DNA of 62,833 bases from a virus. The position numbers and the translations under genes were made by a program. The notes beneath the pieces are model-generated. The model searched no databases. It was not told the DNA's origin and worked only from the letters and a program-made list of their open reading frames with translations. The DNA is taken from the IMG/VR virus record IMGVR_UViG_3300006752_000028, positions 1-62,833 of that record. The stretch is one strand, 5' to 3'. Of the stretch, positions 6,943 through 33,318 are shown one piece after another (the stretch's first letter is position 1; every line of letters starts with the position of its first letter).

Positions 6943-7461
6943 TTACGAAACATTCCTAAGTCTCTTAGTTCTTTTTCCATATTTTTCCTCCATTTCAAAA
7001 TAGAATTCGGTTATGGTACCAGAAGACTCTATTACTTCTTCTTCGTACTCTTCTTTAGTCATTACAAACTCCTTTACAAATAGGTTTCTAATCTCCATTA
7101 GCTTCCTAGCTTCTTCCTTCTCATGATCTTCTACAAGCCTTTTCTTCCTAGCTCTATCAATAGACGTTTCGTTATGAAACTTACCATGATCTATCTCTCC
7201 ACTCTGAGTAGTATTCTCAATATACTTATCATTAATAGTATGGTAAACTAATTCTACTTCAAGCAGGTAAGGACCTGGTTCAAAGTCTCCATTTAGTATT
7301 CTATCTATAAAACTATGACGAGCAGTCAACGGCTTATTCTTAGGCGTATAACTCCTCCACCACATAAACCTATCATAAGGTTTTTTGAAATAGTTCTTAC
7401 TAAGTTTTTTCTCTATCCAGGTCTTAGACCATCTAGGACTATAAGGTAAGTTTACTTGCAT
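6943..7461 (-). CDS. Conserved phage protein of unknown function
   Basis: The 172-aa soluble protein has a basic, aromatic-rich N-terminal half and a highly charged C-terminal half with predicted long helices ('RKKRLVEDHEKEEARKL'). No catalytic motif is seen. I recall similar proteins in marine T4-like phages but no function. The ATG lies only a few bases after a TTTCTTATATTG motif, implying a very short leader and no Shine-Dalgarno sequence. Confidence 0.65.
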   Translation of the reverse strand: MQVNLPYSPRWSKTWIEKKLSKNYFKKPYDRFMWWRSYTPKNKPLTARHSFIDRILNGDFEPGPYLLEVELVYHTINDKYIENTTQSGEIDHGKFHNETSIDRARKKRLVEDHEKEEARKLMEIRNLFVKEFVMTKEEYEEEVIESSGTITEFYFEMEEKYGKRTKRLRNVS

Positions 7462-10713: not shown

Positions 10714-13062
10714 TTAATGACCTTCTGCCCAATTATTAGCAATCTCTGGTGGTGCTTTTAAAGTAACTCCAGGTAGTTTGGTAGTATTCTCCATAATCTC
10801 TTGAACGTAAGGAGCAAACATTTCTGCGTCTTTTTCAGCTATATTAACTATCAGTTGATCATGCACTTGAGCCTGACATATAGCATCGATGTTTAACTCT
10901 TTAGCTTTTTGATTAATCTTTAACGCTGCTCTATTTACTACCGCTGCTGCTAAAGACTGCAATTGGAAGTTAAGACAGTTATTAAGTCCGTTTCTATAAT
11001 CTCTATACGCTTTTAAAACTATATCTTTACCGTAAGTCCTTTCTAGTTCCTTTCTGAATCTCCAATCCATCATCTTATCTTGAAACTTAATATAGGTCTT
11101 TTGAACTTTAGGTAGATGTCTAACTCGTCCTACATAGTTTTTAATATAACCATGAGCTTTGACTTGAAGTCTAGAATTCTCTCTCCATTCTTTTAGCTGA
11201 GGGAATCCATCTAGGTAACCTTGAACTAAACGTTCAGCAGTTTTCTGATCTACTCCTAAAGTCATTTTTAACGCATAAGCTTCCATACCATATGCAATAC
11301 CTAATGAATAAGCTTTTGCTTTATTACGAGCTGGAGCATCTAGTTTCTTTAGGTAGTTAGGAGCACTTTTATCAGCTGAGACTCCGTTAGGAAATCTAGT
11401 AGTATCTTCGTTTAGCTTTTCAGTTTTAATAGCAACAGTAGAATAAAAATCCCAGTTCTTATTAAAGATCTCTTGTAAAGCTTTATCTCCTGTTACTGAG
11501 GCAAAGCAGTGAGGTTCCAAAGATTCGTAATCGGCATCAATAACCTTTCTACCATTTCCGGCAATAAGAAACTTTCTTACTACGTTTACATACTTCATAA
11601 TGATAGGAGCTTCTTCTCCTTCTTCTAGAGGTTTAGGTAGTTGTTGAGCATCAGATCCATAACGACCAGATACAGTACCGTTTTGCTTAAAGTAAAAATA
11701 GTATCTACCATCTTCCTGACGATCTCTAAATCTATCTACATAGGTAGACTTTATTTTAAGTAATCTATTATATACTCTTAAGTTTTCTGCCCAAGGGTAG
11801 TCTTTAGATAAATCCTTAATCATATCCATATCGAACTTAGCTCTACCAGATTTAGTATTCGATCCTGCTACTTTAGGAGTAATACCCATATACTTAAATA
11901 CGATCTCACCTAACTGCTTTTTAGATTGAATATTAATATAGTCACCATCATTCGATTCCTTCCACATAGTCATAGAAATTCTAGCTACTTCAATTTCATC
12001 TAGTAGTTCTATATTACCTGTTAATAGGTAATTTTTAGCTGGAGATTCTTCTAAAGCTTCTATATTTTTTTGAGTTACAGAATACTTACCTGTCTTCTCA
12101 GATTTAGGTAAATTTAATGAATACCTTTCAGCTAACCTTTGAGCCCAGTTACCTTTATGAGAAGGTGGATACTCTTTAAAAGCTGTATCCATAATCCACT
12201 CTTTAACTTCAGGTATCTCTAATAGAGACTTCATTACTATTTCCTTATTATTTTTTTGATCTTCTATAATCTCACCATGAACTTTTTCAATTAGTTCTAT
12301 ATCTAAATCTACTCCACAAGCTTCCATAGGTACAGTTACTTCACGGTAGATAGGCATTACTTCATCTTCAAAGAAAAACTTCTCTAGTCCTTCTTCTTTA
12401 AGTTTTCCAAGGTATAGATTACATATACGTAAAGTAAGATCGGTATCAGCAGAAGCATATTTACTAAGAATATCCAAGTCAGCTTTAAATATTTCATATA
12501 ACGCTTTAGTAGTTGATCCTCCATTATTTTTTATTGATTCTTTAAGTTCTATTTGTTCTTTATTAGCTGCTTCTTCTACGTCTAAACCAAGCTCTTTTTG
12601 ATTCATTATAGCAATAGACTTTAACCCGAAAGGATTACCATAGCCAAAGGCTCCTTCTTCGTATACAGTATGAACTAATAGTCCAGTATCTACGTATACA
12701 CTAGGTAGTAAATCAACTCCAAAATAGTTCTTTATAAACTGAACATCAAAAGAGGCATTATGAAATACTAATTTTTTACCTATAAGTAATTTTAGTAAAT
12801 TTCTAGATATAACCTCAGTAGATTTGCCGTTTATTTCTTGTAGTACTAACTCATCTTTCTCATAATCAAAAACTAAGGTAGGTAAGTAAAAACCTACTCC
12901 TTCGTCTCCAGAAACAGACCAACCAATAATTTTATTCTTACGAGGGTTAAGTCCGGTAGTCTCCGTATCGACTGCTATTACATCTGAGTCTAAGATATGT
13001 TGATGAAGTAATTTTAAGGTCTCTTCATCTTGAACCGTATAGTACTTTTTTTCTAATTGCAT
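10714..13062 (-). CDS. polA: DNA polymerase, family A (with 3'-5' exonuclease)
   Basis: The 782-aa replicative polymerase has an N-terminal proofreading exonuclease (ExoI 'AVDTETTGL' near 34, ExoII 'HNASFDVQF', ExoIII 'YASADTDLTL') and no 5' nuclease domain. The polymerase domain shows motif A 'DADYESLEPH', motif B 'RNKAKAYSLGIAYG' and motif C 'QVHDQL'. The residue matching E. coli Phe762 is Leu, a substitution also known in other environmental viral PolA proteins. A class A motif at 13086-13100 lies upstream. A separate 5' nuclease gene is at 28565-29593. Confidence 0.97.
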   Translation of the reverse strand: MQLEKKYYTVQDEETLKLLHQHILDSDVIAVDTETTGLNPRKNKIIGWSVSGDEGVGFYLPTLVFDYEKDELVLQEINGKSTEVISRNLLKLLIGKKLVFHNASFDVQFIKNYFGVDLLPSVYVDTGLLVHTVYEEGAFGYGNPFGLKSIAIMNQKELGLDVEEAANKEQIELKESIKNNGGSTTKALYEIFKADLDILSKYASADTDLTLRICNLYLGKLKEEGLEKFFFEDEVMPIYREVTVPMEACGVDLDIELIEKVHGEIIEDQKNNKEIVMKSLLEIPEVKEWIMDTAFKEYPPSHKGNWAQRLAERYSLNLPKSEKTGKYSVTQKNIEALEESPAKNYLLTGNIELLDEIEVARISMTMWKESNDGDYINIQSKKQLGEIVFKYMGITPKVAGSNTKSGRAKFDMDMIKDLSKDYPWAENLRVYNRLLKIKSTYVDRFRDRQEDGRYYFYFKQNGTVSGRYGSDAQQLPKPLEEGEEAPIIMKYVNVVRKFLIAGNGRKVIDADYESLEPHCFASVTGDKALQEIFNKNWDFYSTVAIKTEKLNEDTTRFPNGVSADKSAPNYLKKLDAPARNKAKAYSLGIAYGMEAYALKMTLGVDQKTAERLVQGYLDGFPQLKEWRENSRLQVKAHGYIKNYVGRVRHLPKVQKTYIKFQDKMMDWRFRKELERTYGKDIVLKAYRDYRNGLNNCLNFQLQSLAAAVVNRAALKINQKAKELNIDAICQAQVHDQLIVNIAEKDAEMFAPYVQEIMENTTKLPGVTLKAPPEIANNWAEGH

Positions 13063-14578: not shown

Positions 14579-15490
14579 CTATTGTCTCAAAGTTTTTTCA
14601 ATTCTATAATCTGTATGTGTAAAGAAATCTGGTATAAATCTTGAATGCGTAGCTCTAATAGGGTTAATATCTAAACCGCCTCGTCTAGTATATAAACATG
14701 CTACCATTAAGTCGTCTGGTTGATAAGCATCCGTTAAATGTTTAAACACCATCTCGCATATCTCTTCATGAAAATGGCTAACAGTTCTATGAGATACTAT
14801 ATACTTAGCTATTGACTCAGGAGAAGGAATATTTTTACCATTCATTCTAATAAAAACATCTCCCCAATCTGGCTGATTAGTAACTCTACAGTTAGATCTT
14901 AGTAAGTTTGATTTTAACTTAATTTCTTTAGATTCTTTAACTACAGTTTCAGTTTCCAATTGAGAAGCATCAGATGAAAAAGCAGTAAAATCTATTAAGT
15001 CTAAATCTGCTATATCTCCTAGATCTTGATACCCTTCAAATGATAATGCTTTACCGTCATCTATATCACTATAGAAACTTACAGTCGTACTTGTTTCTAA
15101 TAATTTATCTAAGTCTTCTTTAACTTTAGCTTCTATCACAGCCATACAATCTGCTGCACAGTCTCCTAATCTAGTCATATTGAAAGAATTTAAATATAAC
15201 TTAATAGATTTAGATTCTACGTGAAATTCTGAATTGGAAGGACAGACTATTTTTAACATACCGGCTACAGGTTGACCTTTAGTTGTAATAGCTGATACTT
15301 CATAACAATTCCAAGTATCTACTCCTACAAAGCTTTTATCAGTTAATCCGTATCCTTCTCTGTTTAAATACCTTGGTACCTTAACTAGTAATTCAGGAGC
15401 GTAAGTATCTTTATACCCGTCTCCTCCTACTTTACCTAAATGTTTAGACGCTATGTCTACTACTGCTTGATAATTTTTTACTTCTGCCAT
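14579..15490 (-). CDS. queF: QueF, PreQ0 reductase (bimodular)
   Basis: The 303-aa NADPH-dependent 7-cyano-7-deazaguanine reductase is of the two-module (E. coli) type. The QueF motif ESKSIKLYLNSFN is at 92-104, the catalytic Cys201 lies in SNCRVTNQPDWGD with Asp208 exactly seven residues on, and the C-terminal signature 'YTRRGGLDINPIRA' is intact. It converts PreQ0 to PreQ1. In phages QueF marks a DNA modification beyond PreQ0. It sits in the same block as DpdA, the formyltransferase and QueC/D/E/FolE. Confidence 0.95.
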   Translation of the reverse strand: MAEVKNYQAVVDIASKHLGKVGGDGYKDTYAPELLVKVPRYLNREGYGLTDKSFVGVDTWNCYEVSAITTKGQPVAGMLKIVCPSNSEFHVESKSIKLYLNSFNMTRLGDCAADCMAVIEAKVKEDLDKLLETSTTVSFYSDIDDGKALSFEGYQDLGDIADLDLIDFTAFSSDASQLETETVVKESKEIKLKSNLLRSNCRVTNQPDWGDVFIRMNGKNIPSPESIAKYIVSHRTVSHFHEEICEMVFKHLTDAYQPDDLMVACLYTRRGGLDINPIRATHSRFIPDFFTHTDYRIEKTLRQ

Positions 15491-16617: not shown

Positions 16618-17160
16618 TTATAAACCAAATACTTTCTTTAGAAATATAGTCCACATATATAATGATCTATCTTTAAATACCCCCCACATTTCTTCTTCTG
16701 TAATGTTAAAAGCATTGAATCTTTCTTCTGCTAGTATCTTACCTTCATCTACCCCTGCATCAACTTTATGAAGAACACATCCCATAACTGGGTATTTTCC
16801 TTCAAATGCTCTAATCTGTGGATCTTTTCCTTTAAGTTCTGGGTATTCAGTTATAAGACCTGGATGTCCGTTAAAGATAGAGAACTTTTCGCATACTTCT
16901 TTCGGCATAATACGTAACCAACCATGTAAGGTAATTATTGCTTCCGGAAAATATACTAGTATTTCTTCATAATCCTCTAAAGTAGGTTTATTATTTAAAG
17001 TGAAAAAACCATTTTCTACTATTCTAGGATCTATCTCTCTAAGTCTTTCAGGTCTCTCGTTAGTATAAATTCTATCAGGCCATTTACCAAGTGACTTAGC
17101 TAAATCAGCTATCTCACTACCAGTCTGACTAAAGAATGCTATCCAAGGTTTAGTTGCCAT
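16618..17160 (-). CDS. dpdN: Formyltransferase, probable DpdN (PreQ1 formylation)
   Basis: The 180-aa protein has the core of the PurN/Fmt formyltransferase family: 'ITLHGWLRIMP' near 76-86, catalytic Asn97-x-His99 in 'FNGHPGL', and 'HKVDAGVDEGKIL' with the catalytic Asp at about 138. It would use 10-formyl-THF. Its start overlaps the DpdA stop by 11 nt. A formyltransferase (DpdN) was proposed from phage genomes to convert DNA PreQ1 into 7-(formylamino)methyl-7-deazaguanine, and the presence of QueF and DpdA here fits. An ordinary PurN is shorter on context evidence. Confidence 0.82.
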   Translation of the reverse strand: MATKPWIAFFSQTGSEIADLAKSLGKWPDRIYTNERPERLREIDPRIVENGFFTLNNKPTLEDYEEILVYFPEAIITLHGWLRIMPKEVCEKFSIFNGHPGLITEYPELKGKDPQIRAFEGKYPVMGCVLHKVDAGVDEGKILAEERFNAFNITEEEMWGVFKDRSLYMWTIFLKKVFGL

Positions 17161-17953
17161 TCGTAAACCATTTAAATTTCTGTATATTGTTTTTAATCGT
17201 TCCTAATTGCTTCATATCAATATCTGAGTTTATTAGTTCGAATAGTTTTTGTCTTTCTTTAGACCAAAGTCCATCTGAACCATATGTTATACCTTTTATT
17301 CCGTGAACAACAGGGTTAGATGTATCTAGTGAATAAATCCAATCATAATCTGAATGCTTGTAGAAGCTAAATTCTTGAGGTAGCCCACAACCTAGTAAAT
17401 GATGAGGTTTATGTTTATTAATTATACCGTCTTTAAGTAAATCTCCCAGTAACTTAACACGTCCTAGCATCCAACTAACATACTTGTTAGCATGAGGTAC
17501 AGAAGTGCTGTAATACGAATAATCAAATGATATAGCTATCATATCTACATCTGCTGATTTATTCATATAGTTATAGCAATCTACTATTTCATCATAAGTC
17601 TTACCTTGAACTACTCCTATCTTTCCACTTCCTTCGTATCCAAGACCTTTATTATTCCAATCTTCCATTTGATCGCAAGTTTTAGTAGCGTCTTCTAAAG
17701 CATCAGGAACAATGTACCATGAAGGTCTAAAGTCTTTTACCCATTTATCAAACTTCGCAGCATCAAAAGCTTCTTCTAATTCGAAAATAGAGTTATCTAG
17801 TATAATCTCTCTACCTTTGTCTCTAGCTCTTTTAAATTGATTGAGGTATGCTTCATCTTCCTCAAATAAATGAACTAAAGCATAATCATAATCAGTAAGT
17901 TTTTGAACTTCTTCAAATACCTCTTTGGGACTTTCGTGTGCTATTTTTATCAT
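17150..17953 (-). CDS. dpdA: DpdA, DNA-guanine transglycosylase (TGT-like)
   Basis: The 267-aa protein is a short relative of tRNA-guanine transglycosylase. Asp53 in 'ILDNSIFE' and Asp210 in 'YSLDTSNP' occupy the positions of the two catalytic aspartates, with 'VPDALED', 'IGVVQGKTY' and 'LLGCGLPQEF' of the TIM barrel between. DpdA proteins exchange guanine in DNA for a 7-deazaguanine base after replication. The subfamily cannot be fixed by eye. It overlaps the formyltransferase (11 nt) and the upstream 71-aa gene (4 nt), so all three are one translational unit. Confidence 0.88.
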   Translation of the reverse strand: MIKIAHESPKEVFEEVQKLTDYDYALVHLFEEDEAYLNQFKRARDKGREIILDNSIFELEEAFDAAKFDKWVKDFRPSWYIVPDALEDATKTCDQMEDWNNKGLGYEGSGKIGVVQGKTYDEIVDCYNYMNKSADVDMIAISFDYSYYSTSVPHANKYVSWMLGRVKLLGDLLKDGIINKHKPHHLLGCGLPQEFSFYKHSDYDWIYSLDTSNPVVHGIKGITYGSDGLWSKERQKLFELINSDIDMKQLGTIKNNIQKFKWFTNGN

Positions 17954-18907: not shown

Positions 18908-19621
18908 TTAATGTTTACAAATACTTGCTAATTCTATATTCTTATAGAACTCTGCTTTTGCTGAATCTTCGTTTAAGAACGCTCCTGTTAGTTTAGCAGT
19001 TTGCATTGATGCTCCTCTATGCTTAACTCCTCTACAGCTAACACAGTTATGGGTAGCTGATATCATTACTGCAACTCCTAAATTACCTTCACATATCTTA
19101 TCTACTGCATTATGTATAGCTACAGTTAATTGTTCTTGAATAGCTCCTCTTCTACCGAATTGTTCTACTATCCTATTAAGTTTAGATAGTCCTACTACTT
19201 TTCCATCCTCTGAAGCTATATAAGCAATGCTTACATTACCACCGATTGTTTGGTGATGATGTGAACACATCGACTGAACTGGTATATTGCTTTCTTGTAC
19301 TATACCGTCGTATCCGTCTGATGGAAATGCTGTTATACGGTCTAGAGGGTTATACCTTCCGGCCCATAAATCATTAACATATGCTTTAGCTACTCTCATT
19401 GGGGTATCAGATGAATTAGGATCATCTTTATAATCACATCCTAACGCAGTTAAAAACTCTGCGTATGCTTTTGCTGCTCTTTCTATAATTACATGCTTCT
19501 CATGTTCTGTTAACCTTGCTTCAGGTCCTTCTAATTCTTGCTTTGCAGCTAATTGACTTGATATACCATTTGCATATCCTGCTTTTACTAATTCTGTTCC
19601 GTCTATAAACTTTTTAGGCAT
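18908..19621 (-). CDS. folE: GTP cyclohydrolase I (FolE)
   Basis: The 237-aa enzyme catalyses the first step of deazaguanine synthesis, GTP to dihydroneopterin triphosphate. Zinc and catalytic residues are visible: Cys/His in 'MCSHHHQTIGG' and the second zinc region 'ATHNCVSCRGVKHRG'. 'DDPNSSDTPMRVAKAYVNDL' is the family N-terminal signature. It lies between the PRTase and DUF4494 genes. A preQ1-I-like leader at 19625-19658 and a class A motif at 19668-19682 precede it. Confidence 0.95.
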   Translation of the reverse strand: MPKKFIDGTELVKAGYANGISSQLAAKQELEGPEARLTEHEKHVIIERAAKAYAEFLTALGCDYKDDPNSSDTPMRVAKAYVNDLWAGRYNPLDRITAFPSDGYDGIVQESNIPVQSMCSHHHQTIGGNVSIAYIASEDGKVVGLSKLNRIVEQFGRRGAIQEQLTVAIHNAVDKICEGNLGVAVMISATHNCVSCRGVKHRGASMQTAKLTGAFLNEDSAKAEFYKNIELASICKH

Positions 19622-19624
19622 AAT

Positions 19625-19658
19625 ATTTAATTTGTTTTATTGAGGTTCTACGACTCAT
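19625..19658 (-). promoter_or_regulatory. preQ1-I riboswitch-like leader of folE
   Basis: The coding strand contains a small hairpin (TGAG/CTCA) enclosing TCGTAGAAC, followed by an A-rich tail AATAAAACAAA and then the folE start. The order GUCG-AG-AACC, stem, AACAAAAC-type tail matches the Thermoanaerobacter preQ1-I aptamer pattern. Loop-tail pseudoknot pairing is weak here. Closely related to the leader at 21949-21978. Confidence 0.45.
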
Positions 19659-19667
19659 TTGTTAATA

Positions 19668-19682
19668 CAATATACGATTTTT
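19668..19682 (-). promoter_or_regulatory. Class A promoter-like motif before folE
   Basis: The minus strand reads AAAAATCGTATATTG, about 10 nt upstream of the riboswitch-like hairpin; it shares the CGTATATTG variant with the motif at 21997-22011. Confidence 0.5.
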
Positions 19683-20254: not shown

Positions 20255-20381
20255 TTTCTATATAACTTTTTAATTTATCTATTAATACTAATACTTCGTC
20301 TGGTTCCATTGTTATAGCACAGCAAGTATTTATGTTTTCTGCTACTTCCTCTAATACCTCTAAAGCTTCATCTTTAGTCAT
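20247..20381 (-). CDS. Small acidic protein (44 aa)
   Basis: A 44-aa frame starts at the last base of the QueE stop codon (TAATG) and ends 8 nt into the next gene. It is acidic and helical (MTKDEALEVLEEVAEN) with a Cys-Cys pair at residues 20-21. No family is recognised. The exact start/stop overlaps on both sides are the main support. Confidence 0.6.
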   Translation of the reverse strand: MTKDEALEVLEEVAENINTCCAITMEPDEVLVLIDKLKSYIENE

Positions 20382-21169
20382 TATACCTCTCTTTGATCTT
20401 CAAAAGCAATAATATGAGGTCTCCAAGTCATTCTATATCCGTTATCTCTAACCCAATCAAATAATACTGGGTATGATTTAAATAATGCTTCTCTAGAATC
20501 TCCTGCAGGCATAAACCATACTTTTTCAGATTTAACATCCAAAGTTTTTATACAGTCCATTATTTCAGCTAATGCTTCTTGATCTTTACCGTCCCATACT
20601 GGTTTAATATGGAAATCAGAATGATACTCTATTGACTGCTTAATTGCCTCATAATTAAGTCTAAATTTATTATGACGTTTTACCATTCTCTCATCTGTAA
20701 TTGCACCTTGAGGAGTTTCTACTCCAACGACTGGAACAGAATTAGAAAACTTAGGGCTAATAGATAACAAATTAATAGGGTAATCTGTGGGTAGGAAATG
20801 ACTACCTTCAGTTTCGATAGTAATAAAGATATTATTTTCATGTGCAAAATGTGTTAATTCGTTTACTAAAGCTGGATGCATAGTAGGAGAACCTCCTGTC
20901 AACATCATCTCTTTTATATGAGGATTCTTTTCGTACATCGCAATTATATCTTTAAAATTGAAGTCTCCTTTTTCCGGGTGTATACTTGTATACCAACTAT
21001 CACACCATCCTCCTTCTCCGAAGTAACATCTATGGGTACATCCTGTAGTTCTTATTACAACTGTTGGGTAACCTGCTCTTGAACCTTCTGATTGTACTGC
21101 TGTATATATTTCTACGATAGGTAGGTTTTTATCGTAATCTTCTATTCTCTTTAATTGCTTGTGTGCCAT
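20381..21169 (-). CDS. queE: QueE, 7-carboxy-7-deazaguanine synthase (radical SAM)
   Basis: The 262-aa radical SAM enzyme makes CDG from CPH4. It has 'RTTGCTHRC' with cluster cysteines followed after seven residues by 'WCDSWYT', so the cluster motif is CX3CX7C, wider than the usual CX3CX2C; a two-Cys shift for metal binding is possible but the WCD is typical of QueE. 'MLTGGSPTMHP' is the glycine-rich SAM-binding motif and 'SISPKFS' is conserved. It lies 20 nt downstream of QueD. Confidence 0.92.
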   Translation of the reverse strand: MAHKQLKRIEDYDKNLPIVEIYTAVQSEGSRAGYPTVVIRTTGCTHRCYFGEGGWCDSWYTSIHPEKGDFNFKDIIAMYEKNPHIKEMMLTGGSPTMHPALVNELTHFAHENNIFITIETEGSHFLPTDYPINLLSISPKFSNSVPVVGVETPQGAITDERMVKRHNKFRLNYEAIKQSIEYHSDFHIKPVWDGKDQEALAEIMDCIKTLDVKSEKVWFMPAGDSREALFKSYPVLFDWVRDNGYRMTWRPHIIAFEDQREV

Positions 21170-21189: not shown

Positions 21190-21678
21190 CTACTCCTCGT
21201 AGATTGATGAATTTTTATCTGCTTCCCAACATTCAACTTTGGTAACTTTTACTCTACCTCCTCCAGTTAGTTCCATTCTTTTGTTAAAATGATCAAATAC
21301 TAATTTAGCACAAGATTCTGCTCCCATTGAATCCATAACCCTTAAAGCACATAGTCCTAATTCCTCCATGTATTGGAAAGTTTCTAATTGAGGATCATCT
21401 TTTTCTATTAGTAGAGTGTGATCCCACATATGGTTCATCCAATCTTTTAAACCATTACCGGGTGTTGGTTCAGCATCAGTTGATTTAAACCCTCCGTAAT
21501 CCATAATCCAATTCATCTCATCTAATTGATTTTCTTCTAGTGGTTCTTTAGATTCAAACCATACTTTAAATTTTAAAGCATATCCGTGAAGTAATTCACA
21601 ATGTGAGTGTGCAGCTTTATGCTGTCTTAGTGCTACTGAGTAATTATCAAATAGCTTTGTTGATTTGTATGTTCCCAT
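21190..21678 (-). CDS. queD: QueD, 6-carboxytetrahydropterin synthase
   Basis: The 162-aa protein of the PTPS family converts dihydroneopterin triphosphate to CPH4. It shows the zinc ligand set: 'AAHSHCELLHGY' (His, Cys and His-Gly) near residues 22-33, 'MDYGGFK' near 64, 'HTLLIEKDDP' near 91. The usual family length is 120-150 aa. It is first downstream of the 85-aa membrane protein and upstream of QueE. Confidence 0.93.
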   Translation of the reverse strand: MGTYKSTKLFDNYSVALRQHKAAHSHCELLHGYALKFKVWFESKEPLEENQLDEMNWIMDYGGFKSTDAEPTPGNGLKDWMNHMWDHTLLIEKDDPQLETFQYMEELGLCALRVMDSMGAESCAKLVFDHFNKRMELTGGGRVKVTKVECWEADKNSSIYEE

Positions 21679-21688
21679 AATTTTTATT

Positions 21689-21946
21689 TTAAACTAATTC
21701 TTCTCCTATTCCTACTATTTCTGATAGTATAAGCAAAATAGCAGCTATATCTATACTCCACCATAATGCAGCATACCCTAATATACGGATACCTGATTTG
21801 ATGAAGCTAATTTGTTGATGTAATTTTGGATCTGGAATTTTATGATCATTGATCTTAATTCCTGTAAATTCTTTACCTGTAGAATGCGAACCTTCTCTGT
21901 CGTATAGTTCGTCTAGGATTTCTTTTTCTTCTTTTCTTTTTATCAT
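21689..21946 (-). CDS. Small membrane protein led by riboswitch-like RNA
   Basis: The 85-aa protein has a charged N-terminal half ('MIKRKEEKEILDELYDREG') and one long or two short hydrophobic helices in the C-terminal half (about residues 53-78). No family is recognised. It is first in the QueD-QueE operon and its start codon directly follows a preQ1-I-like structure. A transport or membrane role in deazaguanine or pterin metabolism is conceivable, but nothing in the sequence shows it. Confidence 0.65.
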   Translation of the reverse strand: MIKRKEEKEILDELYDREGSHSTGKEFTGIKINDHKIPDPKLHQQISFIKSGIRILGYAALWWSIDIAAILLILSEIVGIGEELV

Positions 21947-21948
21947 AT

Positions 21949-21978
21949 TCGTGTTTTTATAGTGGTGCTACGACACTG
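21949..21978 (-). promoter_or_regulatory. preQ1-I riboswitch-like leader of queD/queE operon
   Basis: The coding strand has a 4-bp stem AGTG/CACT around TCGTAGCAC, then ATAAAAACACGA and the start ATG two bases later. The loop TCGT is complementary to the tail ACGA, giving the H-type pseudoknot of preQ1-I aptamers, with the characteristic CACC-stem-ATAAAAA arrangement. Folding would cover the start codon, consistent with repression by PreQ1 in a genome without Shine-Dalgarno sites. Confidence 0.6.
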
Positions 21979-21996
21979 TTGTGCTATATATTTATA

Positions 21997-22011
21997 CAAT
22001 ATACGAAACTT
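21997..22011 (-). promoter_or_regulatory. Class A promoter-like motif
   Basis: The minus strand reads AAGTTTCGTATATTG, about 20 nt upstream of the riboswitch-like hairpin; the same CGTATATTG variant precedes folE. Confidence 0.5.
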
Positions 22012-22704: not shown

Positions 22705-22848
22705 TTAAATATTACGGTGTCTTCTCATACCGTCCCATTTCACTTTTTTTGTTTTACTCAACATCCTTAATTTATCTATACGATTATTAAGTTTATTCCT
22801 TTCAGAATTTAATTGAGTATTTCCGTTTGTTTGATCACTAATTGCCAT
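22705..22848 (-). CDS. Small basic protein (47 aa)
   Basis: A 47-aa frame starts 11 nt inside the 3' end of QueC and stops at 22707-22705. It is rich in Asn, Lys and Arg with a helical middle (NKLNNRIDKLRML) and a basic tail. No family is recognised. Supported by overlap with QueC and good fit into an otherwise empty gap. Confidence 0.5.
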   Translation of the reverse strand: MAISDQTNGNTQLNSERNKLNNRIDKLRMLSKTKKVKWDGMRRHRNI

Positions 22849-23659
22849 ATCCTGCGAGTACTTTTTCAACATGAGCTTTTGCAACTTGGTAACTAACTAC
22901 ACCTGTTTCATCAGCATATCCAACAGGATCAGGTCTACCTAATTTAATAAAAGCCTCAATACGTTCTACTGATGAAGCTGATTTATAATCACTATACCAT
23001 TCCCAAGCATTTGCTTCAGGTCTGCTGTAAACTTTCATTGGTTTATAAGAGGTATTTGTTCTTCTATACACCTCGTCAAAGTCTAAATCTAGTACCTCAC
23101 ATAAATTTAATCCATCTTGTAAGATACCAAACTTATCAGTATCTAAATAAGGAGTAAAGTAACCTACTCTATCAGCATCCCAATTCCCCATTCTAAAAGC
23201 TGCATCATCTGCATCTCTAAATTCCTGTCTGCAATCAGGGTAAACTGCATGATCACCAGCATGAATACCTAAAGCAATATCACAAACACCTTCTGTTTTA
23301 TTTGCTACAGATAATGCTACTGCTTGTGTAATTGAAGCAAACATTTTATTTCTATTAGGAACAACAGTTTCTTTCATATTCTCTTGCTCGTAATGTCCTT
23401 CTGGTACATCATCTCCGCCTTCTACTAAAGCTGAATCTAGTAAATCTACTAAACCATCTAATTTAATTTGACGATAATTTACTTTGTGACCTTTACTTGC
23501 AAGGTAATCAATTAATGATTGAGCTCTTTCTAGCTCTACTTTATGTTTTTGACCGTAGTCAAATGAGATACCTGTTACTGTATCATACTTCTCGATAGCT
23601 CTTAACAATAGGGTGCTGCTATCCATTCCACCACTTAAACTTACTACACAATGTGCCAT
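22838..23659 (-). CDS. queC: QueC, 7-cyano-7-deazaguanine synthase
   Basis: The 273-aa ATP-dependent amidase-type synthetase turns CDG and ammonia into PreQ0. The PP-loop 'SLSGGMDSSTLL' (residues 7-18), 'FDYGQKH', 'VPNRNKMF' and 'HAGDHAVYPDCR' are all family hallmarks. The usual C-terminal four-cysteine zinc site is missing: where bacterial QueC has TSCY...CGxCxxC, this has 'TNTSYKP' and no cysteine thereafter. Activity is probably kept, but the zinc site has been replaced by other structure. Confidence 0.92.
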   Translation of the reverse strand: MAHCVVSLSGGMDSSTLLLRAIEKYDTVTGISFDYGQKHKVELERAQSLIDYLASKGHKVNYRQIKLDGLVDLLDSALVEGGDDVPEGHYEQENMKETVVPNRNKMFASITQAVALSVANKTEGVCDIALGIHAGDHAVYPDCRQEFRDADDAAFRMGNWDADRVGYFTPYLDTDKFGILQDGLNLCEVLDLDFDEVYRRTNTSYKPMKVYSRPEANAWEWYSDYKSASSVERIEAFIKLGRPDPVGYADETGVVSYQVAKAHVEKVLAGYGN

Positions 23660-31992: not shown

Positions 31993-33318
31993 CTACAAAA
32001 CTAAATTTTTATTGTACTTAAATTTAACTGGATATTTTTTACCGCTTTCTAATATATCTTTCAGTTCATTTAAAGTCTCTTTGCCGTCTTCTTTACTAAA
32101 ATCAAATAAGATAGCATCATATGTATAAAGCGATATTTTAGTCTTTTTATTTCTTAAGTATCGCAGTACTTCTTTCAATATAAGAATATTATTTGAGGTT
32201 TCCAACGATTGCATCATATAATTCATTAGCTTAGCTGGATGAGTGTCTTTAAGGTTGGTAGTAAACGGTTTTCCAGATTGAGGATTACTCACTACTCCTA
32301 TTTCTTTATAGACTGCCCACATGTTATCAATATATTCCTGTATTAATTTAAATATTTTTAAATTTTTATGTTCTTCTGGTATTTTACCGTATATGGCTTG
32401 AAAATTAATTTGTTTAGCTTCAATATACTGTTCATCTGTAATATCTTCAGTTCCAAAGTAATGTTTTGCTAGTTGCTTATGAGCAGACTCAGGGGTAAGT
32501 TCATATCCAATCTGATTACAAAGTAACCTAAGGTGATAACCATCAAAATCAAACTCAACAAAGTAATCATTGGTCGGGTGGAAACAGTTTCGATGCTGCT
32601 CACTTTTAGGTATAGCAGCGAAATTAACGCTGTTGAAAGCATTAGTAGGTCTAGAAGTTGCATTATATAAATTATAAAAGGTTAAAACTTTATTGTTCTT
32701 AATATTGTATACGGGATCTCTTGGAGTAAAGTTCTCCAGGAATTTATCATAATCTATTCCAATTCCATGTTGCTCTAATAAGAAAAACACATTAGTTGCT
32801 ATAGAGTTATAAAAATCAAATCCAGCAGGGATTTCAATATCTAATACAGTACTTACCGCTTCATATGCTTTTTCACAAACTTCGAAATGTTTAGATATAG
32901 GTATTAGTTTATTAATATGTGGAAACTCCCTAAATTTATTATAAAAATAATTAACTGTGGAATTAGTTTTAGTTATGTCCAATCTTTCGTATTTTACCAT
33001 ACTATAGACTAAAGATATATCTATTGCTCCCTGTAAATTAAAATGATAGAGTAATTTTTTCTTATCTAATGTATATAGTTTATTGCATTTAGAAAGAATA
33101 TCGTAGATACGTTGTTTATCTACATTAATACATTCTTCGTGGTCTATAGGAATTATATAGCCGTGTTGACTTTTTAGTATTCTTATATAGACTGCTACTG
33201 TAGTTGTTAATTTAGGGTGATAAAGATCGTGTGTAGGTATAATATCTACATAGCAGCCAAGCCTCATTAGCTTTTCTAAGCGTTCTAACTTATAAGATTC
33301 TTCAACTATATAAAACAT
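31993..33318 (-). CDS. Divergent family A DNA polymerase-like protein
   Basis: The 441-aa protein keeps the palm/fingers motifs of family A polymerases: motif A 'VEFDFDGYHLRLL' (Asp257 in place of E. coli Asp705, Arg264 for Arg712), motif B 'AKQINFQAIYG' (Lys302, Phe306, Tyr310 in the K-x3-F-x3-Y spacing) and motif C 'YTYDAILFDF' (Asp401; the neighbouring Glu is Ala). The O-helix Arg is missing and the E710 position is His. An N-terminal domain resembles a degenerate 3'-5' exonuclease without its acidic motifs. It is about 100 kDa smaller than Pol I, beside SSB, UvsX and helicase. Possible accessory or repair polymerase, or an inactive replication cofactor. Confidence 0.8.
   Translation of the reverse strand: MFYIVEESYKLERLEKLMRLGCYVDIIPTHDLYHPKLTTTVAVYIRILKSQHGYIIPIDHEECINVDKQRIYDILSKCNKLYTLDKKKLLYHFNLQGAIDISLVYSMVKYERLDITKTNSTVNYFYNKFREFPHINKLIPISKHFEVCEKAYEAVSTVLDIEIPAGFDFYNSIATNVFFLLEQHGIGIDYDKFLENFTPRDPVYNIKNNKVLTFYNLYNATSRPTNAFNSVNFAAIPKSEQHRNCFHPTNDYFVEFDFDGYHLRLLCNQIGYELTPESAHKQLAKHYFGTEDITDEQYIEAKQINFQAIYGKIPEEHKNLKIFKLIQEYIDNMWAVYKEIGVVSNPQSGKPFTTNLKDTHPAKLMNYMMQSLETSNNILILKEVLRYLRNKKTKISLYTYDAILFDFSKEDGKETLNELKDILESGKKYPVKFKYNKNLVL

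Follow-up and report, generated by a model that had tools for sequence, protein, structure and literature searches.

Two predicted preQ1-I-like riboswitches in the leaders of 7-deazaguanine genes of a phage that probably infects Bacteroidota

The 62,833-nt stretch of viral DNA analysed here in full (IMG/VR record IMGVR_UViG_3300006752_000028; referred to as the window) carries two short leader elements, designated riboswitches 1 and 2. Sequence comparison points to phage-encoded preQ1-I type II aptamers of a short variant with a 9-nt loop, in which ligand binding would mask a translation enhancer and so cap the preQ1 output of the phage; the probability assigned to this reading is roughly 0.8. 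The members of the family have a 4-bp P1 closed by G-C and a loop of the form U(C/U)nnAG-N-AC, followed by an A-rich L3 and a C able to pair with G11. They are positioned 12 to 20 nt ahead of the start codon of orf85 (with queD next in line), queD, queE, or folE.

On the minus strand, riboswitch 1 reads AGTG (21977-21974), TCGTAGCAC (21973-21965), CACT (21964-21961), ATAAAAACACGAAT (21960-21947), and ATG (21946-21944). Every part of the layout described in the first-pass annotation was present, namely the 4-bp stem, a loop opening with TCGT, the A-rich tail, the complementary ACGA, and a 2-nt gap to the ATG. The similar leader that had been noticed before folE was found as a second copy at 19657-19619 on the minus strand, with TGAG (19657-19654), TCGTAGAAC, CTCA, ATAAAACAAATTAAATATT, and ATG (19621-19619). 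Riboswitch 1 had been placed at the start of a queD/queE operon; queD and queE do lie downstream, but the first gene is orf85. All ORFs of more than 178 aa in the window are on the minus strand. The features of the two leaders are as follows.

21947..21977, minus strand: preQ1-I-like riboswitch 1 in the orf85-queD-queE leader; P1 AGTG/CACT, L3 ATAAAAA, C30 at 21953; ends at the ATG
21974..21977, minus strand: P1 5' strand AGTG; covariation across relatives
21965..21973, minus strand: loop TCGTAGCAC with U6, C7, and G11; the last C is the putative ligand cytosine
21961..21964, minus strand: P1 3' strand CACT; covariation across relatives
21953..21960, minus strand: A-rich L3 and C30; C30 can pair with G11, and the stretch overlies the translation-enhancer region 5' of the ATG
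19622..19657, minus strand: preQ1-I-like riboswitch 2 in the folE leader; P1 TGAG/CTCA, loop TCGTAGAAC, L3 ATAAAA, C30 at 19634
21998..22006, minus strand: promoter-like box TCGTATATT upstream of riboswitch 1
19669..19677, minus strand: promoter-like box TCGTATATT upstream of riboswitch 2
21689..21946, minus strand: orf85, an 85-aa hydrophobic ORF, the first gene after riboswitch 1

The exact box TCGTATATT occurs three times in the window, and two of the three copies precede the two aptamers. A relaxed descriptor (four Watson-Crick pairs closed by G, a loop T-N3-4-AGNAC, an A-run followed by CA, and an ATG within reach) matched exactly two sites in the window, the two leaders, versus none in 300 dinucleotide shuffles searched on both strands. 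P1 did not appear in the single-sequence minimum free energy (MFE) structure of riboswitch 1, which is another hairpin (z -0.54); single-sequence folding is uninformative here. Within 21930-21990 on the minus strand, an upstream GCAC is complementary to GUGU, a stretch overlapping the P1 5' strand, and the MFE structure prefers the resulting hairpin, which is a possible alternative fold of riboswitch 1.

A gene-blind DNA pattern, TCGTAGNACNNNNNTAAAANNA, which specifies neither a stem nor gene content, gave at least 127 matches in at least 119 stretches of viral contigs; among the matches listed, 56 had the full 4-bp stem and 71 did not. Downstream genes were identified with a query set of nine proteins from the window and further proteins from phages immuto and phi3:1. 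Among the matches listed, orf85, QueD, QueE, or FolE followed within 1,000 nt in 54 of the 56 cases with an intact stem and in none of the 71 with a broken stem, in agreement with the earlier proposal that the element controls deazaguanine genes. Counted by distinct 100-base context, the corresponding values among the matches listed were 42/44 and 0/57. Of the two exceptions with intact stems, one (L145) lies 27 bases from the end of its contig and the other (L082) has an unrelated stem.

Leaders were also collected by protein homology, from the best 80 of a longer list for FolE and the best 80 of 86 for orf85, 79 being usable in each set. Among these best-scoring leaders, the loop core and tail, sought with no stem rule, were present in 47/79 FolE and 31/79 orf85 leaders (78/158 in total), and the core was absent from 32/79 and 48/79, respectively. 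A search that required no loop letters, defined only by a 4-bp hairpin, a loop of 8 to 11 nt, and an A-run tail, returned the loop class T-N2-5-AGNAC in 77/158 of the best-scoring leaders (46/79 FolE and 31/79 orf85). AC directly before the P1 3' strand, which includes the specificity cytosine, was present in this loop class; the A-rich L3 was present as well, the A-run having been part of the search rules. The loops seen were TCGTAGAAC, TCGTAGCAC, TCACAGCAC, TCGAAGCAC, TCGGAGCAC, TTGAAGCAC, and TTCGAAGCAC. Other, mostly AT-rich hairpins occurred in 3 FolE and 13 orf85 leaders and were at most shared within small groups of contigs. The A-count filter of one descriptor lost sites L162, L164, and L190, which a looser version regained, and a narrower descriptor gave a TCGTAG site in only 4 of 80 loci collected by QueD homology. 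Because many relatives lack a riboswitch, the downstream genes evidently work without one.

orf85 had no match in Pfam, PHROG, or NCBIfam, and QueD lay downstream in 31/31 motif-bearing orf85 loci. Its C-terminal ~50 residues are conserved, and it lies near QueC or QueD in many related phage contigs, including riboswitch-less ones. In riboswitch-less phages, the end of the orf85 leader often resembles, on visual inspection, the 3' portion of a tRNA gene (GGTTCGA...; examples are L333, L340, L341, L343, L344, L351, L356, L387, and L388).

The stem was evaluated mainly on sequences chosen independently of it. Four Watson-Crick pairs were present in 34 of 36 distinct sequences sampled by homology; the exceptions were an outer A-A mismatch (L242) and a loop with an extra base in which the stem is kept in another register (L295). 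An alignment of 39 rows comprised these 36 phage sequences, obtained by protein homology without a stem rule, and 3 bacterial sequences picked from 24 (described below); the L295 row was shifted by one base, keeping the stem in register. In this alignment 99.4% of P1 cells were paired. In three of the four pairs both partners change, in one case solely by virtue of the 3 bacterial rows, and the closing G-C pair is present in 39/39 rows, the 3 bacterial rows having it by search pattern. The covariation score of P1 was 0.617, versus 0.104 in shuffles and at most 0.248 with the helix slid, with the reservation that related rows inflate such scores. This alignment replaces an earlier one, A1, whose P1 counts are no proof, its rows having been picked for a paired stem. 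A chance combination of a stem and an A-rich leader would draw on the AT-rich genome, the silence of Rfam, and the poor MFE; given the empty shuffles, the P1 covariation, and the gene association among the matches listed, this explanation is hardly credible.

In P2, the G11-C30 pair is possible in 58/58 distinct sequences (pattern and homology derived). AG and the A-run with its C were selection rules, so that the count agrees with the pair but does not prove it; because the pair never varies across the sequences, it has no covariation support. The 7-33 pair is Watson-Crick in 10/58 of these sequences, 8-32 in 31/58, and 9-31 in 49/58, and 9-33, the register that matches the Thermoanaerobacter tengcongensis (Tte) aptamer by count, is Watson-Crick in 34/58 and G-U in 7/58. 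P2 beyond G11-C30 is thus weak and variable as judged from the letters, and a 4-bp TCGT/ACGA P2 was rejected as a family feature on the 7-33 and 8-32 counts. Of the preQ1-I-like topology originally proposed, the general form was strengthened by the gene association, the P1 covariation, and the bacterial queC/queD leaders, but the 4-bp TCGT/ACGA P2 belongs to riboswitch 1 rather than to the family as a whole.

Known RNA-family models were silent. Rfam at gathering scores gave no match in the window; permissive mode gave nothing relevant around riboswitch 1 and no match at all on 56 bases. The check suggested in the first-pass annotation, the Rfam PreQ1 covariance model, thus returned no match even in permissive mode. 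The best RF00522 (PreQ1) score on the record was 10.5 bits at 7395-7416, elsewhere than the leaders, against a cut-off of 39; the Bacillus subtilis control scored over the cut-off. The preQ1-II model (RF01054) gave no match at an E value of 10. Rfam was likewise silent on the 7 scanned of the 24 bacterial queC/queD leaders, one of which was scanned in permissive mode too, and because the same model missed these leaders, little can be concluded from its silence on the window. RF00522 matched at an E value of 0.1 or better in 14 of 198 Bacteroidota genomes, in one of them over the cut-off; of the 13 sub-cut-off matches, 10 were viewed by eye without being reoriented, and none resembled a queuosine leader. 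Since the model misses both the phage leaders and the scanned bacterial ones, the annotation of preQ1 regulation is probably incomplete. A model built from the phage sequences, R1, scored riboswitch 1 at 49.5 bits and riboswitch 2 at 40.2 bits, both rows being part of its training, and gave 29 sites in 16 motif-bearing records, with two per record in 13/16.

A stricter pattern applied to 84,980 bacterial and archaeal species genomes returned 26 stretches, and queC or queD lay downstream in 24 of them (L205-L224, L226, L227, L229, and L230). Twenty, in 19 Thalassospira genomes and one Rhodospirillales metagenome-assembled genome, precede a reading frame starting MKTIVVC, which NCBIfam identifies as QueC in L205, the one case tested. 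Four, in three Vibrio genomes and one Marinomonas genome, precede a QueD-type frame, and the one tested scored 88.1 bits against a cut-off of 89.25. The remaining two (L225 and L228) are unrelated. R1 scored eight of the bacterial queC/queD leaders at 26.5 to 33.4 bits. The Thalassospira, Vibrio, and Marinomonas leaders share the cores GTCGTAGCACC and TTAAAAACA with the phage elements, but they have CCTG/CAGG as P1 and lie on cellular chromosomes, and Vibrio HA2012 has a terminator-like GC stem and T-run directly after the aptamer.

Two further explanations are touched by these relatives. The Vibrio stem would suit an aptamer that controls transcription termination, as in B. subtilis; since the ATG follows the stem by 14 nt (riboswitch 1) or 19 nt (riboswitch 2) in the window and leaves no room for a terminator, such an attenuator is very improbable for the phage. 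Alternatively, the hairpin could be bound by a phage or host protein, as a translational repressor site or a DNA operator, with no metabolite sensing: it is a short conserved stem-loop at a start codon, and at the DNA level AGTG-N9-CACT forms an inverted repeat. The conserved loop and L3 letters, which match preQ1-I contacts, the same core before queC or queD in Thalassospira, Vibrio, and Marinomonas, and stem letters that vary while pairing is kept argue against such a site, and this explanation is considered improbable.

R1 detected nothing in 395 Bacteroidota genomes, which is weak evidence of absence in hosts, about 18 candidates having been scored per listed genome. In 398 Pseudomonadota genomes it gave 4 matches and in 61 genomes from the family to which the Vibrio centre belongs also 4, the search centre itself being included in both counts. 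Among cultured phages, the motif precedes folE of Flavobacterium phage immuto, and four immuto records align over the leader; no similar motif was found in 8- to 10-kb stretches of Cellulophaga phages phi13:1 and phi3:1 and Chryseobacterium phage MA9V-3. Weak blastn matches in Enterococcus phages were dismissed as chance: two that were inspected lie inside an annotated coding gene, and one that was read lacks the loop core. Because the cultured phages with the closest FolE proteins have Flavobacterium and Cellulophaga hosts, the host is probably a flavobacterium or another member of the Bacteroidota.

The window encodes the following proteins of 7-deazaguanine metabolism.

21190..21678, minus strand: QueD-like 6-pyruvoyl-tetrahydropterin synthase (Pfam PF01242, phrog_2389)
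20381..21169, minus strand: QueE-like radical SAM enzyme (phrog_2076)
18908..19621, minus strand: FolE, GTP cyclohydrolase I (Pfam PF01227), the gene after riboswitch 2
22838..23659, minus strand: QueC (Pfam PF06508)
14579..15490, minus strand: QueF, two-domain nitrile reductase converting preQ0 to preQ1 (PF14819 and PF14489)
17150..17953, minus strand: DpdA homologue (DNA guanine transglycosylase), 73% identical to a Flavobacterium phage immuto protein annotated as DpdA

A tblastn search with QueF of phage phi3:1 revealed no QueF in the window, and a Pfam model later found one. This QueF scored 235.9 bits with TIGR03138, below the cut-off of 293.45, and its best solved relative is QueF 3bp1 (E value, 2.2e-42). 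The DpdA homologue had no match in Pfam or NCBIfam; its label derives from the annotation of the immuto record. In the chosen set of 16 motif-bearing records, window included, QueF was over the cut-off in 15, and all 16 had a DpdA-like protein, whose identity was only 33% in one record. Because the window encodes all steps to preQ1, that of QueF among them, the proposed feedback of preQ1 on its own synthesis is plausible. As the window encodes FolE, QueD, QueE, QueC, two-domain QueF, and a DpdA homologue, the role of the elements is likely to be preQ1 feedback on modification of the phage DNA.

An early idea that the ligand must be preQ0 was dropped once the Pfam model had found QueF. With QueF encoded in the window and in 15/16 motif-bearing records, preQ1 is probably made by the phage pathway and is the likeliest ligand; preQ0 is possible. 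A reading with the same fold and role, in which preQ0 or another 7-deazaguanine (CDG, G+, or a DNA-modification intermediate) is sensed instead, is considered unlikely. In its favour, FolE, QueD, QueE, and QueC together make preQ0, queF in the window has no such leader (the two descriptor sites being elsewhere), and the Tte type II aptamer binds preQ0 only 17-fold more weakly, according to the portion of PMC11625349 that was available. The two-domain QueF, by which preQ1 is probably made, and the preference of known type II aptamers for preQ1 argue against it.

A PurN-like formyltransferase (PF00551; 16618-17160, minus strand) follows the DpdA homologue, and the neighbour of DpdA in phage immuto is 59% identical to it. 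Formylated preQ1 has reportedly been observed in a Cellulophaga phage. In view of that report and of the formyltransferase adjoining DpdA, the modified base of the phage DNA may be formyl-preQ1. Phage DNA containing dPreQ1 is known for Dp-1 (PMC6884629, in part). A DNA/RNA non-specific endonuclease (PF01223; 15497-16060, minus strand) lies between the DpdA region and QueF, and two minus-strand ORFs match DNA polymerase A, at 31993-33318 (weak, 29.8 bits, below the cut-off) and 10714-13062.

No Shine-Dalgarno site was seen in the leader of riboswitch 1, as had been noted in the first-pass annotation. In Flavobacterium johnsoniae, A residues at -12 and -13, -6, and -3 raise translation, as described in the part of PMC6847099 consulted. 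Thirty distinct phage leaders were drawn from 39 sites after removal of duplicates, judged over the sequence as far as the ATG, and of one leader truncated at a contig end; in these, the stretch from L3 to C30 covers position -13 in 30, -14 in 27, -12 in 26, and -11 in 24. Position -12 is occupied by A in 25/30, -11 in 28/30, -10 in 29/30, and -13 in only 11/30, and these counts are inflated because the 39 sites had been required to carry 7 or more A among 12 tail bases. The placement of L3 to C30 over -14 to -11, not the A counts, is the point.

These positions suggest a mechanism. On accumulation of preQ1 (or preQ0), the ligand would pair with the last cytosine of the loop, P1 and the A-rich L3 would dock, and the pseudoknot would close on G11-C30. 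Docking of L3 would remove from access the unstructured A-rich stretch just 5' of the ATG that ribosomes of the Bacteroidota, the probable host phylum, use, and with the enhancer hidden, the early pathway enzymes would be translated less. The phage would in this way cap its own preQ1 output, which would feed DpdA-dependent 7-deazaguanine modification of its DNA. The wider proposal, that a riboswitch lineage found largely in Bacteroidota phages controls DNA-modification chemistry rather than tRNA queuosine, that it needs no Shine-Dalgarno site, and that its ligand-contacting A-rich loop doubles as the translation enhancer of the host phylum (A at about -14 to -11) hidden on binding, stands at even odds. 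If true, viruses tune the supply of their own DNA base through a metabolite-sensing RNA, and the leaders offer a concrete case of riboswitch action in a phylum with ribosomes that initiate independently of Shine-Dalgarno sites.

The fold of phage glutamine riboswitches differs from that of the preQ1-I-like aptamer. Glutamine riboswitches have been described in phage Melnitz and in pelagimyophages and are phage-borne too, but with another ligand and other genes (PMC9004378, in the sections available). The 7-deazaguanine DNA modification pathways of phages include FolE, QueD, QueE, QueC, QueF-type proteins, and DpdA, as in the window (PMC6884629, in part); the word riboswitch has no occurrence in the main text of that paper, the accessible portion of the phage Seurat paper describes no riboswitch of its own (PMC4342423), and sequence strings searched for in PMC11408619 were not found. 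Among the open-licence papers listed in literature searches, none reported a phage preQ1 riboswitch, which is no proof of novelty, subscription papers being mostly outside that search.

Among preQ1-I aptamers, type III (Escherichia coli) resembles the phage elements in its small size, the AC before the P1 3' strand, and its location at the ribosome site. As far as PMC11625349 and PMC10622847 were accessible, in type III the P1 5' strand is followed by UU, the loop is rich in pyrimidines, and the tail carries AAGG; in the phage elements UC follows that strand, the loop contains AG, and AAGG is absent, and type III membership was rejected. In type II, by the part of PMC11625349 available, AC precedes the P1 3' strand and contains the strictly conserved specificity cytosine, and the pocket has G5-C16 as its floor and C7-G11-C30 as its ceiling, the first-loop U and an L3 A being named as well. 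Type II representatives (Tte and the Bacillus subtilis aptamer, Bsu) and the phage elements have in common a P1 closed by G-C, AG in the loop, AC before the P1 3' strand, an A-rich L3 ending AAAAC, and a position upstream of deazaguanine genes, the G11-C30 pair of type II being possible in the phage elements, and the Tte loop starts U-C-G as in the phage. When the window sequence was placed by us on that of Tte, CUGGG-UCGCAGUAAC-CCCAG-UUAACAAAACAAGGG (PMC10639078, in part), an automatic alignment also being made, G5, U6, C7, A10, G11, AC, and AAAAC fell at corresponding positions, the phage loop being shorter by one base. The phage elements differ from type II in a P1 of 4 rather than 5 bp, a loop of 9 nt versus 10 in Tte (UCGCAGUAAC), the missing nucleotide being in L2, a base 9 that is mostly U, a tail with no Shine-Dalgarno sequence, the silence of RF00522, and their location in a phage genome.
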